Assembly (NCBI RefSeq): GCF_018613235.1
Contig: NZ_JAGGQP010000026.1
Span: 29,116 to 93,115 of the forward strand
Direction: 5' to 3'
Source: Bacillus sp. ISL-41
GTDB lineage: Bacteria > Bacillota > Bacilli > Bacillales > Cytobacillaceae
Length of the DNA: 64,000 nt
The translations under genes and the position numbers were made by a program. The notes below the pieces were generated by a model. The model had not been told where the DNA came from. It did no database searches and saw only the letters and a list, made by a program, of their open reading frames with translations. Below are positions 6,844-64,000 of the stretch, one piece after another (within the stretch, counting starts at the first letter, position 1; the number at the start of each line of letters is the position of its first letter).

Positions 6844-7050
6844 AACTTAAGACAGGTTTGATGTTAAAAGAGGAAAAGCTGTCAGAAGTAAGAGTAACTT
6901 AAGACAGGTTTGGTGTTGAAAGAGAAAAAGCTGTCAAAAGAAAGGGCAACTTAAGACAGGTTTGATGTTAAAAGAGGAAAAGCTGTCAAAAGAAAGGTCA
7001 ACTCAAGACAGGTTTGGTATTAAATGAGGATAAGCTGTCAGAACCAGGTC
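6844..7050 (+). repeat. Four tandem 52-bp repeats between clpX and lonB
   Basis: Units begin at 6844, 6896, 6948 and 7000. Three are 52 bases and the last is 51. Each starts AACTTAAGACAGGTTT (AACTCAAG in the last) and holds the half-sites GACAG and AAGCTGTC. These can form an imperfect hairpin spanning 33 bases, with a mismatch at the sixth stem position. No reading frame with a ribosome site is associated. The array ends about 45 bases before the candidate lonB promoter. Confidence 0.9.
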
Positions 7051-22954: not shown

Positions 22955-23225
22955 TAATAAAGCAAAGCTTTGACAGGGAAGAGTACATGAGCAGCCAGCT
23001 TAAAGAGAGGGAGTCCATTAGCTGCGAGGACTTCTAAGCGGAACCATGGAAGGTCGCCCTTGAGCATCGCCTGGGAACGGAATATTCTCACTAACAGGCG
23101 ACGGTGAAGAACCGTTATCCATATTTGAGCCAGCAACCAAACTGTTTTTACCGTTGCTGGGAAAAAAGGTGGTACCGCGAACAAACTCCATTCGTCCTTT
23201 TATGGCGAATGGAGTTTTTTATTTT
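22955..23225 (+). promoter_or_regulatory. T-box riboswitch controlling valS
   Basis: A leader with the T-box bulge sequence GGTGGTACCGCG (23168-23179). The terminator arm AACTCCATTCG (23184-23194) pairs with CGAATGGAGTT (23206-23216) and runs into TTTTTT. Upstream are stem-I marks GGGAAGAGTA and AGAGAGGGAG, and a plausible specifier codon GTC (Val) at 23053-23055. Uncharged tRNA-Val would favour the antiterminator and valS expression. The start of the leader is approximate. Confidence 0.9.
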
Positions 23226-51394: not shown

Positions 51395-51501
51395 TGTTTG
51401 TAGCACCCGTGCTACAACCGCACACTTCAGGTATCTAAGCTTTGCAAATTTGCAAACGCCTGCGGTTGGCGAGTCTGAGTCTAATGAGGAGGTGCACTGG
51501 A
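51395..51501 (+). ncRNA. L21 leader (autoregulatory mRNA structure)
   Basis: The rplU leader contains a perfect hairpin TTGTAGCAC/GTGCTACAA (51398-51417). An adjacent AACCGCAC pairs with the downstream CTGCGGTTGGC, and the strong ribosome site GAGGAGGTG follows. This layout matches the Rfam L21 leader found before rplU-ysxB-rpmA in Bacillus, thought to bind L21. I recognised it by position and shape, not by a covariance search. Confidence 0.75.
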
Positions 51502-56104: not shown

Positions 56105-56644
56105 TTATTCGAAATTAATAAGTAATCCTTCTTTTCTTAGCGTTTCTTCTGCTTCATCCAGCGCTTTTTCCGTTGGAGCGGAGATTGTGTGCAGGTGGAT
56201 TCCGCCTGTTAATTCCGATAGGTAAGAAGCGTTAGTAGCCATGATTTTTTTCATGAACTGTTTTACTTCGTTCCGGTTTGAGACCATGATGGATGCAGTT
56301 AGATCCCCATACACAGGATGCTCAATTTTTACGTCCTTAACAGTTACTCCGTGATCGACAAGAAGCAGGAGTTCTTCTTCTGTCCTTTCAGGGCCGTGGG
56401 AGACAGCAATGGTCCTTTCCGCTGCTGAAGGACGAGAGGCATGCATATATAGATATCCCTGGCTGGTAGCAATGATTGGTTCGTTTTTGGCTTTAAGCAA
56501 GGTAATATCGCCAACAATGACCTGCCTGCTTACATTCGTTATTGCCGAAAGTTCGCCTCCGGTGATGGGTTCACTGCTTTCCTGCAGACGTTTCAGGATG
56601 TATGCCCGGCGTTCATCTCCGAGGATTTTCGTAGGTTCCTTCAT
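56105..56644 (-). CDS. niaR: NiaR, nicotinate-responsive repressor of NAD synthesis
   Basis: A transcriptional repressor of 179 residues (YrxA in B. subtilis) that binds nicotinic acid and shuts down de novo NAD genes. An N-terminal HTH_11 domain (RRAYILKRLQESSEPITGGELSAITNVSRQVIVGDI) is followed by a C-terminal 3H domain. The latter's conserved histidines appear in VDHGVTVKDVKIEHPVYGDL and GGIHLHTI. It is transcribed leftward behind nifS, 59 bases downstream, and probably in one operon with it. A matching operator lies before nadB. Confidence 0.96.
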   Translation of the reverse strand: MKEPTKILGDERRAYILKRLQESSEPITGGELSAITNVSRQVIVGDITLLKAKNEPIIATSQGYLYMHASRPSAAERTIAVSHGPERTEEELLLLVDHGVTVKDVKIEHPVYGDLTASIMVSNRNEVKQFMKKIMATNASYLSELTGGIHLHTISAPTEKALDEAEETLRKEGLLINFE

Positions 56645-56703: not shown

Positions 56704-57843
56704 TTAAACGGCCGACATCTGTGCAGTGATTGCTGCAAGCATTTTCCCAAGATCGCCTGCATCTTCCTGACTAGTCTCCCTCCCGAAAGAAATTCTGAAA
56801 AACTCCTTTGCCTGTTTCCCGTTAATTCCCATTGCAGACATCGTCTTCGCAGGTGACAGCATGCCTGTATGACAAGCGGTTCCGGTGGAAATCGCAAATC
56901 CACTGCGGTTGCATTCAAGCAGGACATATTGTCCCTCCAATCCCTTTATCGCCATTCCCATGATACCTGGAAGCTGTTCATCGCCCTCTGCACCAAAAAT
57001 CTCAATTGAATCCCTGACATCTGAAAGGGATTCAGTTAGAGCCTCTCTCAATTTAGTAACTCTTTTCGTTTCTTTATCCATGATGGAATGTGCTTTTTGC
57101 GCTGCTGCAGTCATTGCTGCGATTCCCGGGACATTTACCGTGCCAGGCCTGAAGCCTTTTTCATGTACAGTTCCATCAATGTAAGGCTTCCATGCAAGCT
57201 TCGGATTGACATAGGCCGCTCCGGTTCCTTTTGGCCCGTAAAACTTATGGCCTGAAATCGAAAGGGCATCTACGCAGCCGGCCAGGGTGTTAAGTGGTAT
57301 TTTTCCAAATGTTTGCACACAGTCAGTGTGAAACAATATGTCTTTTGAATGGCAATAATCAGCAAACGTGATGACCGGCTGGATTGTGCCGATCTCAGGG
57401 TTTCCATGCTGAATCGAAACGAGTACAGTTTTCGGCCGGACAGCTTCTGTAAAACTGGCAAAGTCTATTTTTCCATTTATGTCCAAGGGGAGGTATGTGA
57501 TTTCCCATCCCTCTCCTTCAAGCTTTTTCATCAGATTGTAGACAGATGAATGCTCAGCTGCCCCGGTAATAATGTGATTGCCGGATTTTCTTTTGGCAGA
57601 GAGGAGCGCCATAATGCCAAGGTAATTCGCTTCAGAACCACCGCTTGTAAAATAAATCCCTGCTTCATCGACATCAAGCAGGTGCGAAAACTCCTTTCTG
57701 CAGTTCTCGAGGAGGTTGGCAGATGCACTCCCGGCTTCGTGCAGGCTCTGGCTATTTCCAAAGTACTTTGTTGACGCTTCAAGGAAAATATTAGCTGCGT
57801 CCCGGTCAAGCGGGCATGTTGCCGCGTAATCAAAATATTTCAT
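56704..57843 (-). CDS. nifS: NifS-type cysteine desulfurase (for NadA)
   Basis: A PLP enzyme of 379 residues that supplies sulfur for Fe-S assembly; in B. subtilis the nad-linked NifS serves NadA. The PLP lysine is K200 (SGHKFYGPKG), and the persulfide cysteine is C324 in STGTACHTG. GGSEANYLGI and the HTDCVQTFGK region are typical. The segment usually reading NNEIGTIQ is here HGNPEIGTIQ, a minor variant. CAGGAG precedes the ATG. It diverges from nadB across the 52-bp repeat array. Confidence 0.95.
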   Translation of the reverse strand: MKYFDYAATCPLDRDAANIFLEASTKYFGNSQSLHEAGSASANLLENCRKEFSHLLDVDEAGIYFTSGGSEANYLGIMALLSAKRKSGNHIITGAAEHSSVYNLMKKLEGEGWEITYLPLDINGKIDFASFTEAVRPKTVLVSIQHGNPEIGTIQPVITFADYCHSKDILFHTDCVQTFGKIPLNTLAGCVDALSISGHKFYGPKGTGAAYVNPKLAWKPYIDGTVHEKGFRPGTVNVPGIAAMTAAAQKAHSIMDKETKRVTKLREALTESLSDVRDSIEIFGAEGDEQLPGIMGMAIKGLEGQYVLLECNRSGFAISTGTACHTGMLSPAKTMSAMGINGKQAKEFFRISFGRETSQEDAGDLGKMLAAITAQMSAV

Positions 57844-57912
57844 AGGTTTTCGCTCCTGTCCACTCTTACTGTTTGCTTATGCCTGTAAAGCTGATTCTTC
57901 TGAAATCTCGAT

Positions 57913-58900
57913 TACTAGAAGGGCCAGCATGTGCCCGAAGTCAGGCTTTGTAACGAATTTCGGTCACAAGAAGAGCCAACATGTGCCCAAAGTTAGGTTT
58001 TGTAACGAATTTCGGTCACAAGAAGAGTCAACATGTGCCCGAAGTCAGGCTTTGCAACGAATTTCGGTCACAAGAAGAGTCAACATGTGCCCGAAGTCAG
58101 GCTTTGTAACGAATCTCGGTCACAAGAAGAGCCGACATGTGCCCGAAGTGAAGCTTTCTAACGAATTTCGGTCACAAGAAGGGCTAACTTGTGCCCGAAG
58201 TCAGGCTTTGTAATGAATCTCGGTCACAAGAAGAGCCGACATGTGCCCGAAGTGAGGCTTTCAAACGAATCTCGGTCACAAGAAGAGTCAACATGTGCCC
58301 GAAGTGAGGCTTTCAAATGAATCTCGGTCACAAGAAGAGCCAATATGTGCCCGAAGTCAGGCTTTGTAACGAATTTCGGTCACAAGAAGAGCCAACATGT
58401 GCCCGAAGTCAGGCTTTGTAACGAATTTCGGTCACAAGAAGAGTCAACATGTGCCCGAAGTCAGGCTTTGCAACGAATCTCGGTCACAAGAAGAGCCAGC
58501 ATGTGCCCGAAGTCAGGCTTTTAAACAAATCTCGGTCACAAGAAGAGCCAGCATGTGCCCGAAGTCAGGCTTTAAAATGAATTTCGGTCACAAGAAGAGC
58601 CAGCATGTGCCCGAAGTCAGGCTTTGTAACGAATTTCGGTCACAAGAAGAGCCAGCATGTGCCCGAAGTCAGGCTTTGCAACGAATCTCGGTCACAAGAA
58701 GAGCCAACATGTGCCCGAAGTGAGGCTTTCAAACGAATCTCGGTCACAAGAAGAGCTAACATGTGCCCGAAGTCAGGCTTTTAAACAAATCTCGGTCACA
58801 AGAAGAGCCGACATGTGCCCGAAGTGAGGCTTTCAAATGAATTTCGGTCACAAGAAGAGCCAATATGAGACGGAAATCTAGCTTTCGGTTTCCTCTCGGT
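57913..58900. repeat. Nineteen tandem 52-bp units between nifS and nadB
   Basis: Exactly 19 x 52 = 988 bases without an indel. Unit starts run 57913, 57965, 58017 and so on to 58849. A typical unit is CACAAGAAGAGCCAACATGT, then GCCCGAAGTCAGGCTTTGTA, then ACGAATTTCGGT. Point variants recur across units (GTCAGGCTTTGTA or GTGAGGCTTTCAA; ACGAATT, ACGAATC or ATGAATC). The first and last units have diverged most. TTCGGTCACA of one unit and TGTGCCCGAA of the next form a 33-base imperfect hairpin. The short frames inside have no ribosome sites, and the frame rotates every three units. Confidence 0.97.
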
Positions 58901-58943
58901 CACATATCGTATCTTGCATTCTCCAATGTAAAAATAAAAGCTC

Positions 58944-58991
58944 TTGTCAACAGTGTAAAACTGTGTAAACATAGATGTCAAGACACCTGTT
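58944..58991 (+). promoter_or_regulatory. nadBCA promoter with overlapping NiaR operator
   Basis: TTGTCA (58944-58949), a 16-base spacer and TAAACA (58966-58971), preceded by TGTG, form a plausible promoter. The dyad AACATAGATGTC/AAGACACCTGTT at 58968-58991 fits the NiaR-type site (TGTCTTGACA-like core on the reverse strand) as I recall it. It covers the -10 and start site, a standard repression geometry. Confidence 0.65.
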
Positions 58992-59012
58992 AATCCAGGA
59001 GGCTATCAATAT

Positions 59013-60629
59013 ATGAAACAATCAGATGTAATCATTGTTGGCAGTGGGATTGCCGCATTGCAATTGGCCAATAAATTATCAAAGGATTTAAATGTGATTA
59101 TTCTCACAAAAAGGGAATTGACAGCGGGCAATTCATATCTTGCCCAGGGTGGGGTTGCGGCTGCGGTTTCCACGAGTGATGATCCTTATTTCCATTATCT
59201 CGACACAATGGAGGCGGGAGCTCATCATAGTAACCCTGAAGCTGTACTTGAAATGACCAGAAAAGCACCGCAGCTGATTAAGGGTTTATGGAAATCTGGA
59301 TGTCGCTTTGATGAAGATGGAAACGGAAAATTGCTTCTTGGGATGGAAGGAGCTCATAGTGAAAAAAGGATTATCCACAGCGGCGGTGATGCGACTGGTA
59401 AGCATATGGTCGACTTTTTGCTAACGGGTCTGAATGCCAATGTTTCAGTTCAACAATCCACATTTGTTTATGAACTTATTTTAAACAGTGATGAAACACG
59501 CTGTACCGGAGTGAAATCGAAGCTGCCGGATGGAACGATTGAAGTATATTGTGCTCCCCATGTTGTGCTTGCTACGGGCGGCTGCGGGCAAGTATTCGCC
59601 CTCACCTCGAATGCTGAGACTGCAACCGGGGATGGAATGGCGCTGGCCTACAGAGCAGGTGCGGAGCTGGCCGATATGGAATTTATCCAGTTTCATCCTA
59701 CACTTCTTTACGTAGATGGAAAGACGAAGGGGCTCATTTCAGAAGCAGTAAGGGGTGAAGGGGCAGTTCTAGTCACTGCAGAGGGAAAGCGGATCATGGA
59801 AGAAGTTCATCCGTTGAAGGACCTGGCACCACGGCACATTGTTTCCCAGACTATTTATGATTACTCGCGGAGAGGAATTCAAATCTATTTAGACATTGCC
59901 AACATCCAGGATTTCAACAGCAGGTTCCCGACGATCAGCACGCTATGTGCACAGCATGGAATAGATATTGAAAAAGGCTTGATCCCTGTTGTTCCCGGGA
60001 GCCATTTTATCATGGGCGGGGTAAAAACAGACTTGCATGGCAGAACCAGTATCCCCGGATTGTATGCAATTGGTGAAACTGCATGCACTGGAATCCACGG
60101 AGCAAACAGGCTGGCGAGCAATTCCTTATTAGAAGGCATGTTTGTTGGCGAAAACCTTGCTGAATGGATCAACAGCCATCAAGCTGCCAAAAAAGAGGCA
60201 GTAAGTTTCATGGAAATTCATTATCAAACTGCCAAAAGAGAATCCAACATGAATCAAGTTGTATTCGAAGGTGAGCTTCCAGACGTGGATTCACTAAAAC
60301 AAACAATGATGGACCGTACAGGCATTGTCCGGACAAAAGAATTGCTGATCATACAGAATGAGTGGCTTGAACAGTTCAAACTGGGACAATGGCTTGAGGC
60401 TCGTCTGGACCACTTGGATCCATCTGAATTGAACAGACTGTTCATGTACATCACCGCAACCTTAATCACACAGTCGGCTTTGGAAAGGACTGAAAGCAGG
60501 GGCGGTCACTACCGAAAAGATTTTCCGCATGAAGATAACGCCAATTGGATGAAAAAACAAATCATCCATCAACGAAAAAACGTAAAGGATGGTAAGCATG
60601 AATTCAATCAAACTGCGCTTGCTACTTGA
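59013..60629 (+). CDS. nadB: L-aspartate oxidase
   Basis: A flavoenzyme that oxidises aspartate to iminoaspartate, the first step of de novo NAD synthesis. The 538-residue product has the FAD motif VIIVGSGIAALQLA at the N-terminus, TAGNSYLAQGGVAAAV, the flavin loop ATGGCGQVFALTSN and the catalytic-region HPTLLYVDG. The C-terminal helical domain is complete. GGAGGCTATCAATAT precedes ATG 59013. It overlaps nadC by 32 bases. Confidence 0.97.
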   Translation: MKQSDVIIVGSGIAALQLANKLSKDLNVIILTKRELTAGNSYLAQGGVAAAVSTSDDPYFHYLDTMEAGAHHSNPEAVLEMTRKAPQLIKGLWKSGCRFDEDGNGKLLLGMEGAHSEKRIIHSGGDATGKHMVDFLLTGLNANVSVQQSTFVYELILNSDETRCTGVKSKLPDGTIEVYCAPHVVLATGGCGQVFALTSNAETATGDGMALAYRAGAELADMEFIQFHPTLLYVDGKTKGLISEAVRGEGAVLVTAEGKRIMEEVHPLKDLAPRHIVSQTIYDYSRRGIQIYLDIANIQDFNSRFPTISTLCAQHGIDIEKGLIPVVPGSHFIMGGVKTDLHGRTSIPGLYAIGETACTGIHGANRLASNSLLEGMFVGENLAEWINSHQAAKKEAVSFMEIHYQTAKRESNMNQVVFEGELPDVDSLKQTMMDRTGIVRTKELLIIQNEWLEQFKLGQWLEARLDHLDPSELNRLFMYITATLITQSALERTESRGGHYRKDFPHEDNANWMKKQIIHQRKNVKDGKHEFNQTALAT

Positions 60630-62723: not shown

Positions 62724-64000
62724 GTGAAAATCCATATCGTACAGAAAGGGGATACTCTTTGGAAGATCGCCAAGAAGTACGGCGTGAACTTTGAAGAGCT
62801 GAAAAAGATGAACGCGCAGCTCAGCAACCCTGATATGATTATGCCCGGTATGAAAATAAAAGTTCCAACTGCTGGAGGAACAGTAAAAAAAGAAGCTCCA
62901 ATCGCAGGTGGAACGCCTCAAGCAAAAATCAATATGGGTGGCAAAAAGGAAATGCCGATTGCCAAAGAGAAACCAATGCCAATGCCAGAAGTGAAGAAAG
63001 AAGTTCCAAAAGAGGCTCCAGTTAAGGAACAGCCGAAGATGGAGATGCCTAAACCTGTTCCAAAGGAAGAGCCAGTTAAACCATATAAACCGAAGATGCC
63101 AGTGCAAATTAAGCCTGAGATTGACATCAACAATTACTATATGATGAATATGGCTAATATGCAGATGCCGCCGCAGCCAAAACCGCAGCCAAAACCACAG
63201 CCGAAGCCGCAGCCAAAACCACAACCCAAGCCGCAGCTACCGCCGAAACCAGACAATATCTTTCCAGAAGTCAAGCCAGAGGTAAAGCCAGAAGTCAAGG
63301 CTCCAGTCAAGCAGCAGATCAAACCACAGGTTAAGCCAGAGGTAAAACCTCAGCTGCCAAAAGCTGAGATGAAACCAAATGTGAAGTCAGAAATAAAGCC
63401 CGATATAAAAATTGAAAAGAATGATTTCATGGATGAATCTCCATCAATGATGCCATTCGTTCAAGGAGGTTACCAGCAGCCGATGATCCCTTATCCTTAT
63501 AACTGTTATCCAGGATCACCTTCCATGACAGGTCCCGCATATGGCCATCAAGGACAGCAAATGCCATATCCTCAAGGACAGCAAATGCCATACCCTCAGG
63601 TACAGGGGATGTCCCAATACCCAGGGATGATGCCAAACATGGCATTGCCAGCGGAGGATATGGAATCATCATCTTTTGCCCAGATGCAGATGCCATTGAG
63701 CCCGACTATGGGGGGGAATATGCCTCATCATACAGCACCGCAAATGACAGGTCCTGTTTTCCACGGTGTTCCTATTTCACCTGTAATGCCTGGACCAGGC
63801 TGCATTCCAGAACAAGGGTATCCTCAACAGATGCCATATATGCCGCAAGTTGCAGGTGCGATGGATGAGCAAATGCCTTTACAGCCACAAGTAGGCGGAA
63901 TGATGGATAATCAAATGCCGCAGGTTGGCGGAATGATGGATGATGAATCTTCGGATATGCCAATGCCTCAGATGCCGCAAGTAGGCGGAATGATGGATAA
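62724..64000 (+). CDS. safA: SafA, LysM spore coat/cortex interface protein (3' end outside window)
   Basis: A spore morphogenetic protein that sits at the cortex-coat interface and works with SpoVID. The GTG start at 62724 follows AGGAGGGA. Residues 1-48 form a LysM domain (MKIHIVQKGDTLWKIAKKYG). A Lys/Pro-rich linker follows, with an uninterrupted PKPQ tandem near 63174-63250 and EVKPEVK-type repeats. A Met/Gln/Pro/Gly-rich coat-like region runs to the edge, with QGQQMPYP and VGGMMD repeats. At least 425 residues are open and no stop is reached, so it already exceeds the 387 of B. subtilis. Only the LysM end is conserved enough to identify. Confidence 0.92.
   Translation, partial: MKIHIVQKGDTLWKIAKKYGVNFEELKKMNAQLSNPDMIMPGMKIKVPTAGGTVKKEAPIAGGTPQAKINMGGKKEMPIAKEKPMPMPEVKKEVPKEAPVKEQPKMEMPKPVPKEEPVKPYKPKMPVQIKPEIDINNYYMMNMANMQMPPQPKPQPKPQPKPQPKPQPKPQLPPKPDNIFPEVKPEVKPEVKAPVKQQIKPQVKPEVKPQLPKAEMKPNVKSEIKPDIKIEKNDFMDESPSMMPFVQGGYQQPMIPYPYNCYPGSPSMTGPAYGHQGQQMPYPQGQQMPYPQVQGMSQYPGMMPNMALPAEDMESSSFAQMQMPLSPTMGGNMPHHTAPQMTGPVFHGVPISPVMPGPGCIPEQGYPQQMPYMPQVAGAMDEQMPLQPQVGGMMDNQMPQVGGMMDDESSDMPMPQMPQVGGMMD

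Follow-up and report, generated by a model that had tools for sequence, protein, structure and literature searches.

The gap between the divergent genes nifS and nadB of Bacillus sp. ISL-41 holds a 52-bp tandem array of the class that Subirana and Messeguer (2020, 2021) described as 52-nt tandem repeats, and arrays of this class in related genomes nearly always follow the direction of the replication fork, independently of the genes flanking them. The units at nifS-nadB run along the inferred fork, and, as a tentative explanation that we regard as quite possible, the array may persist as a DNA satellite in which whole units are gained and lost when the palindromic repeats become single-stranded during replication. 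This explanation is based on the fixed period, the palindromic unit, the gene-independent fork polarity, the labile copy number and the mosaic nature of the units, all of which are documented here. The array was found in a stretch of 64,000 nucleotides (the window) from a genome that we call G000.

The array occupies positions 57904-58873 of the window and is described on the plus strand. TRF called it at 57904-58867 with a period of 52, 18.5 copies, 90% matches, 0% indels and a score of 1480, and 19 core positions follow one another at steps of exactly 52 bp, the whole series running from 57909 to 58873. Each unit consists of a 29-bp imperfect palindrome, CGGTNACAAG-8-ACNTGTGNCCG, and a 23-bp spacer. 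In an exact copy of the core (58377-58405, plus strand), T (core position 4) and C (core position 26) stand opposite each other as a conserved mismatch. Inner units carry 0 or 1 mismatch per core and the outer two are degenerate: the first (57909-57937, plus strand), 65 bp from the nifS start codon, has 3 mismatches, and the last (58845-58873, plus strand) has 3-4. An earlier, sequence-only reading of this DNA had described 19 consecutive in-phase units of 52 bp without an indel and arms TTCGGTCACA and TGTGCCCGAA separated by 13 bases, and both descriptions are confirmed, the former by TRF as well as by the core positions and with the two outer units degenerate.

That reading had also noticed variants common to distant units, which are real: however far apart two units lie, their mean identity is 0.87-0.92, and identical blocks as long as 64 bp reappear 8 units away. 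Because identity stays flat over distance and exact blocks recur, units have been exchanged along the array, and this mosaic structure supports the unequal exchange that had been suggested. The proposed imperfect hairpins held up in part, in that the palindrome is kept with compensating changes but its predicted stability is unremarkable; folding of six units gave z values of -0.81 for minus-strand RNA and -1.38 for plus-strand DNA, a modest thermodynamic signal that beats shuffles weakly. No Rfam family matched the array at gathering score, and a CRISPR array was rejected because its spacers should vary between units, whereas those at nifS-nadB are nearly identical. Elsewhere in the window, Rfam matches correspond to a T-box leader (22961-23202) and a ribosomal protein L21 leader (51406-51486), and TRF found tandem repeats with periods of 12 and 24 at 63171-63605 that probably code for Pro/Lys/Gln-rich protein segments.

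Assignment to the 52-nt class rests on several shared features. The class has a constant length of 52 (±1) and at least 4 units, and the nifS-nadB array has units of exactly this length at 19 core positions; arrays of the same length and other sequence occur in the window (6844-7040), elsewhere in G000 and in the relative G018; a short signal and its reverse lie inside the unit; and the host lineage is a known one, by way of M. boroniphilus and M. subterraneus. In the accessible text of the published account, the class is likewise characterized by constant length, variable sequence and several families per genome, by signals with their reverse in the unit, by a non-coding nature and by partial conservation between strains. 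From a survey of 176 genomes, the same text places these repeats in ~30% of the Bacillus species covered; it names B. selenatarsenatis, B. boroniphilus and B. subterraneus with its Table 1, and suggests nucleoid proteins or small RNAs (PMC8161180). The words “orientation” and “leading” are absent from the main text of PMC8161180, and no earlier report of fork polarity for 52-nt repeats was found in the open-licence papers searched. Relative to the printed record searched, the fork polarity, the common palindromic plan and the history at one junction are additions.

The second array in the window (6844-7040, plus strand; stem CTGTC/GACAG) lies with the inferred fork between a lonB-like gene and a clpX-like gene, the latter presumably clpX as named from a reading of the sequence, and its core, CTGTCANAAG-8-ACTTAAGACAG, has the same 29+23 layout as the nifS-nadB unit. 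Stems vary among the families of G018, and include GGTCACATAGAA/TTCTATGTGCCC, GGTCACC/GGCGCCC, CTGTC/GACAG, TTTGTCCGAA/TTCGGACAAA and AAAATGTC/GACATTTT. TRF analysis of an even 0.8-Mb sample of the complete genome G018 yielded 19 arrays (14 with period 52, one with 51, one with 50, two with 104 and one with 102), from which the whole genome is estimated by extrapolation to contain roughly 110; in two relatives lacking array-pattern matches, 0.2 Mb of sequence apiece yielded no period close to 52. One G018 array (C1:2750163-2753782, L185) spans 3.6 kb, with ~70 units and a higher-order period of 104 bp.

The pairing of the arms was analyzed in 45 representative units of the family with the CGG motif, picked by a motif scan (at most 2 mismatches) that left core positions 5, 21 and 26 and everything outside positions 1-29 free, such that part of the conservation seen in the demanded letters follows from the selection. 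In the imperfect stem of 12 pairs, 82.6% of cells are paired, compared with 77.8% when partners were shuffled and 26-42% in sliding controls. Doubly changed cells number 32 versus 17.4 in shuffles (a value reached in 0 of 500 shuffles), and 19 of the 32 come from one pair beside CGG/CCG that is T-A in 20 units and A-T in 19; doubly changed pairs number 4, with no excess over shuffles (3.4). Covariation in this family thus leans largely on one pair. The T-C mismatch between core positions 4 and 26 is retained in 44 of the 45 units (of the two letters, only the T was required by the scan). A motif-free test found an inverted repeat better than shuffles (p ≤0.05) in 37 of 50 non-redundant arrays, and in 36 of those 37 the inverted repeat spans 27-37 bp. 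The common plan of the 52-nt unit is an imperfect palindrome plus a spacer, with compensating changes in the arms.

A search of the whole genome with the array, as the sequence-only reading had proposed, located related DNA at 13 places, nifS-nadB included. TRF reported a period of 52 without indels at 11 of the 12 other places, the twelfth being one unit at a contig end, and the spacer sequence is particular to each array. The exact core CGGTNACAAG-8-ACNTGTGNCCG occurs 65 times in this genome (39 forward, 26 reverse; reversed control 0). Within the genus, 16 of 21 genomes contain this exact core, and 40 genomes from other genera yielded none. The genus name Mesobacillus is inferred from core-bearing records: in the named collection, the tandem core is present in Mesobacillus records, including M. 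boroniphilus and M. subterraneus, in strains that coincide with genus members, and in Evansella tamaricis. Five single core matches in unrelated lineages look like chance. Units in relatives are spaced by 52 at nearly every step, with lone steps of 44, 50, 51, 53 or 103 in a few arrays. Solitary cores (at most 3 mismatches) are few and resembled array remnants or contig-edge copies, and they therefore carry no inference on insertion versus expansion. Across the order, the pattern AAG-8-ACWT, required three times at 52-bp spacing, matched 25 of 397 genomes and its reversed control about 22; outside the genus the counts were 16 genomes forward and 19 for the control. Because the control matches as often there, the pattern shows 52-bp arrays of many sequences rather than sharing of the motif. 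Six records labelled Chryseobacterium sp. ISL-80 (L035, L038, L043, L049, L051 and L053) carry Mesobacillus-type arrays at positions that coincide with those of G014, and their label looks wrong. Array matches also lie at the ends of G000 contigs C25, C37, C38 and C41, where 52-bp arrays break the assembly.

To place arrays in a fork frame, replichores were defined by dnaA and a single dif-like site in seven relatives and by dif and skew in an eighth. The sign of the skew agrees with dnaA/dif in 43 of 43 G018 stretches, and skew was therefore used for G000, G340 and the window, whose GC skew is positive in all eight 8-kb bins and gives the inferred fork direction. Every one of the 39 CGG-motif places in the eight relatives is oriented from origin to terminus. 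Exact or one-mismatch cores account for 7 places in G009, 3 in G011, 2 in G017, 3 in G018 and 10 in G019, and exact cores for 4 in G001, 3 in G007 and 7 in G016; 8 of the 39 are single cores at the chosen stringency, four unassignable G007 arrays (contigs C3 and C6) were excluded, and some nearly palindromic G019 units that match both strands were counted once with their array.

Polarity was also assessed without the motif, by comparing 69 arrays from eight genomes. In the fork frame, 293 of 297 similar pairs agree, and 147 of these 293 link opposite replichores; array by array, 57 of 59 agree and 10 of the 69 are without a partner. Because many of the compared arrays are orthologous, these counts are not independent events and overstate independence. 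Agreement among arrays with a partner was 12/12 in G000, 8/8 in G019, 8/8 in G018, 10/11 in G340, 3/3 in G011 and 2/2 in G009. The exceptions are G340 C1:115499 and G017 C1:498293, and the tally becomes 55 of 57 when the pair of G340 arrays in a partly masked stretch is set aside. Control genomes G042 and G045 and near-duplicate arrays in overlapping stretches were removed from the pairs, and pairs with a score difference <3 were dropped from the per-array graph. The two masked-stretch G340 arrays were kept for polarity and flanking genes and dropped from the folding, octamer and heptamer, inverted-repeat and promoter tests, and the two exceptions were dropped from the folding and from the octamer and heptamer tests because their polarity is reversed. 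The fork strand of the arrays is purine-rich (63.8% versus 53.3% for G018; 45 of 48 non-redundant arrays), the nifS-nadB array lying below this class mean at 56.5%, and the two strands did not differ in predicted DNA folding (26 versus 22 arrays, p = 0.24).

The 20-21-nt repeats described by the same authors resemble the 52-nt arrays in being intergenic, constant in length, divided into several families and present in the same genomes, but they differ in showing no strict fork polarity here: pairs of the 20-21/40-42-nt class had the same orientation in 13 cases and the opposite one in 8 (p = 4e-8 against the 52-nt class, on pairs that are not independent). G018 repeats of 20, 41 and 42 bp (e.g. 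C1:801151, 577512 and 3898551), several with the motif TCGCCAATAAA, form this separate intergenic class.

Of 1758 genes called as longest ORFs in the stretches that hold the 52-nt arrays, 1395 are oriented with the fork. The genes flanking the arrays, counted in the fork frame and with 5 of the 69 arrays excluded for lying at stretch edges, are ++ for 35 arrays, +- for 14, -- for 9 and -+ for 6. All seven CGG-motif arrays between two anti-fork genes keep fork polarity, and the other two of the nine -- arrays are the masked G340 pair. The fork polarity of arrays is independent of the flanking genes. Twelve arrays with an anti-fork upstream neighbour had a co-fork promoter-like site in 1 case and an anti-fork site in 7, where shuffling gives an expectation of ~4.4 per direction (arrays with <40 bp upstream were excluded); the anti-fork sites could belong to the neighbouring gene. 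Arrays are rarer in divergent gaps than the background (6 of 64 versus 162 of 725, p = 0.016), and their median distance is 170 bp from gene 5' ends and 108 bp from 3' ends (p = 0.006).

At the junction itself, a nifS-like cysteine desulfurase gene (Aminotran_5; 56704-57843) and niaR (HTH_11 and 3H domain; 56105-56644) lie on the minus strand, and nadB (FAD_binding_2, Succ_DH_flav_C; 59013-60629) lies on the plus strand. The nifS and nadBCA operons are described in the accessible text of PMC7713382 as having a common promoter region, and a NiaR site at 58964-58985 equals the B. halodurans nifS-nadB probe of that study in 21 of 22 bases. The NiaR element is next to nadB in 16 of 16 Mesobacillus loci, array or no array (15 found by pattern, G016 by reading). 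A consensus scan predicted three promoter-like sites, all on the minus strand, where 1.3 are expected by chance over both strands; no such site was found on the plus strand at the array. Two of the three, at 58931-58981 on the nadB side (58981-58952, 10/12; 58959-58931, 9/12), are candidate promoters for nifS, and the remaining site (57862-57834), which overlaps the start of nifS, could not serve that gene. The array had been proposed to push the nifS and nadB promoters more than 1 kb apart; the NiaR site and the two candidate nifS promoters instead sit together on the nadB side, which puts the array between the shared control region and nifS. Judged from these sites, the array would give nifS a predicted leader of about 1.1 kb while leaving the promoters unseparated. 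Insulation of the divergent promoters, another of the roles considered in the sequence-only reading, is unsupported because the control elements are unsplit and arrays are rarer between divergent genes, and a function specific to NAD genes is unsupported given that a dozen other places in the genome carry the same units.

Counting cores with at most 5 mismatches at this junction across Mesobacillus genomes, the comparison that had been proposed, bore out a variable-number locus, with 0 to 19 units in relatives. G000 has 19 cores, G013 8, G007 7, G011 6 (two weak), G014 4, G003 3, G006 3 (one weak), G009 2, G004 1 and G001 1 (weak), and G016 has 11 exact cores directly upstream of nadB; none was found in G012, G015, G002 or G010, where the operator is intact, and G005 was unreadable that far. 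At least one core is thus present in 11 of the 15 readable genomes, our own counted. The G016 nadB (C1:915101-916765) contains one in-frame TAA in the search alignment. Recurrence in 11 of 15 genomes and a position inside the predicted nifS leader would suit a local control element of nifS/nadB, either an insulator or a regulator of the leader, yet we consider such an element very unlikely: the unit number ranges from 0 to 19 and is zero in 4 of 15 genomes with an intact operator, the same units lie at many unrelated loci, and the control elements are unseparated. Dispersed copies and variable number disfavour a local role, and at nifS-nadB the array would most likely have grown passively within the nifS leader, without reaching the NiaR control element.

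Other explanations make different demands on the same data. Hairpin RNAs transcribed from the fork strand, with co-orientation reflecting avoidance of head-on transcription, would agree with the purine-rich fork strand, with the compensating pairs in the stem and, as far as the accessible parts of two reports go, with the transcription of 52-nt repeats in B. coagulans (PMC8625621, PMC8161180). We nevertheless think this explanation improbable, since the seven CGG-motif arrays between anti-fork genes keep the fork direction, a co-fork promoter-like site precedes 1 of 12 arrays (in a consensus scan that weak sites would escape), and the nifS-nadB array combines a weak fold with the lack of an Rfam match and of a plus-strand promoter-like site; it is the missing co-fork promoters that disfavour an RNA role. 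Transposition through single-stranded DNA is expected to produce fork-biased orientation and hairpins, and a REP/RAYT- or IS200/IS605-type mobile hairpin that a Y1 transposase had placed in the lagging-strand template, and that was then duplicated in tandem, would account for both. REP/BIME elements associated with RAYT are intergenic imperfect palindromes, at times in tandem, and in this they resemble the arrays, but they are not known for a fixed 52-bp period, and the distribution of Y1 genes does not match that of the arrays: of 18 genomes with array-pattern matches 15 have Y1_Tnp, and of 18 without such matches 13 do. It is absent from G016 (with 70 exact cores), G006 and G353, and Y1 transposase was rejected as the source of polarity because it is missing in these 3 of 18 array-bearing genomes. 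With solitary copies, moreover, resembling array remnants or contig-edge copies, a mobile origin is highly improbable. That the array is an assembly artefact is hardly conceivable; arrays do break contigs of G000, but the units differ from one another and arrays of the same kind are found in single-contig genomes of relatives.

A protein is a more serious contender. With a period of ~five helical turns, palindromic sites would lie on one face of the DNA, where a nucleoid or chromosome protein could polymerize into a polar complex tolerated only in the fork-permissive orientation. This possibility, which we judge to be on the unlikely side, would fit the period of 52 common to arrays of different sequence, the palindromic sites and the larger gap that arrays leave to gene 5' ends than to 3' ends (medians of 170 and 108 bp), and Subirana and Messeguer put forward a nucleoid protein in the accessible text of PMC8161180. 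The stems within one genome, however, are so unlike (CGGTCACA, CTGTC, TTTGTCCGAA and AAAATGTC) that a single sequence-specific protein is difficult to imagine, and the period is not absolute, with one G018 array of 51 and one of 50 and with spacings of 44, 50, 51, 53 or 103 inside a few arrays of relatives. RTP-Ter of B. subtilis offers a parallel, being a system of polar fork-arrest sites with a ~29-bp imperfect inverted repeat, oriented with respect to the fork. The 52-bp arrays differ in being spread over the whole chromosome, and RTP, the sole polar fork-barrier protein tested, was rejected because none of 10 array-bearing genomes has a PF02334 match above the cut-off, all matches falling below it. 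The SpoIIIE recognition octamer, which we take to be GAGAAGGG, was also rejected: the exact octamer occurs 0 times on the fork strand of arrays versus 2.5 in shuffles, and one-mismatch versions 44 times versus 44.9. The heptamer AGAAGGG, the last seven bases of the octamer, occurs 22 times versus 6.9 in shuffles on the fork strand of 65 arrays and 0 times on the other strand, and a diverged SpoIIIE site in arrays is possible.

With an RNA role, Y1, RTP and a local role disfavoured, a DNA-level, replication-coupled process remains. We infer both this satellite and its main rival, a polar protein array on one helix face, and favour the former. In the satellite model, the purine-rich strand of an array would be the lagging-strand template, where folding or mispairing at the fork may lead to slippage or recombination by whole 52-bp units, and arrays might be yielded or tolerated in one orientation only. 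Predicted folding does not differ between the strands, so the stability of hairpins by itself does not account for the favoured orientation. Slippage also leaves unexplained why 52 bp is common to unrelated families, a length that amounts to 5.0 turns at 10.4 bp per turn and that a protein on one helix face would explain. More speculatively, and in our estimate improbably, 52-nt arrays could be fork-polar chromosomal signals that are recognized in structured, single-stranded form on the lagging-strand template, perhaps as replication-restart stations or by a polar barrier protein, with pairing, five-turn spacing and polarity under selection while the letters drift.

In print, at least in the accessible text of PMC8161180, the 52-nt repeats are a puzzle of constant length combined with variable sequence, with no function assigned. 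A polarity that is independent of the genes and missing from the 20-21-nt class speaks against transcription-based explanations of these repeats and points towards the replication fork.
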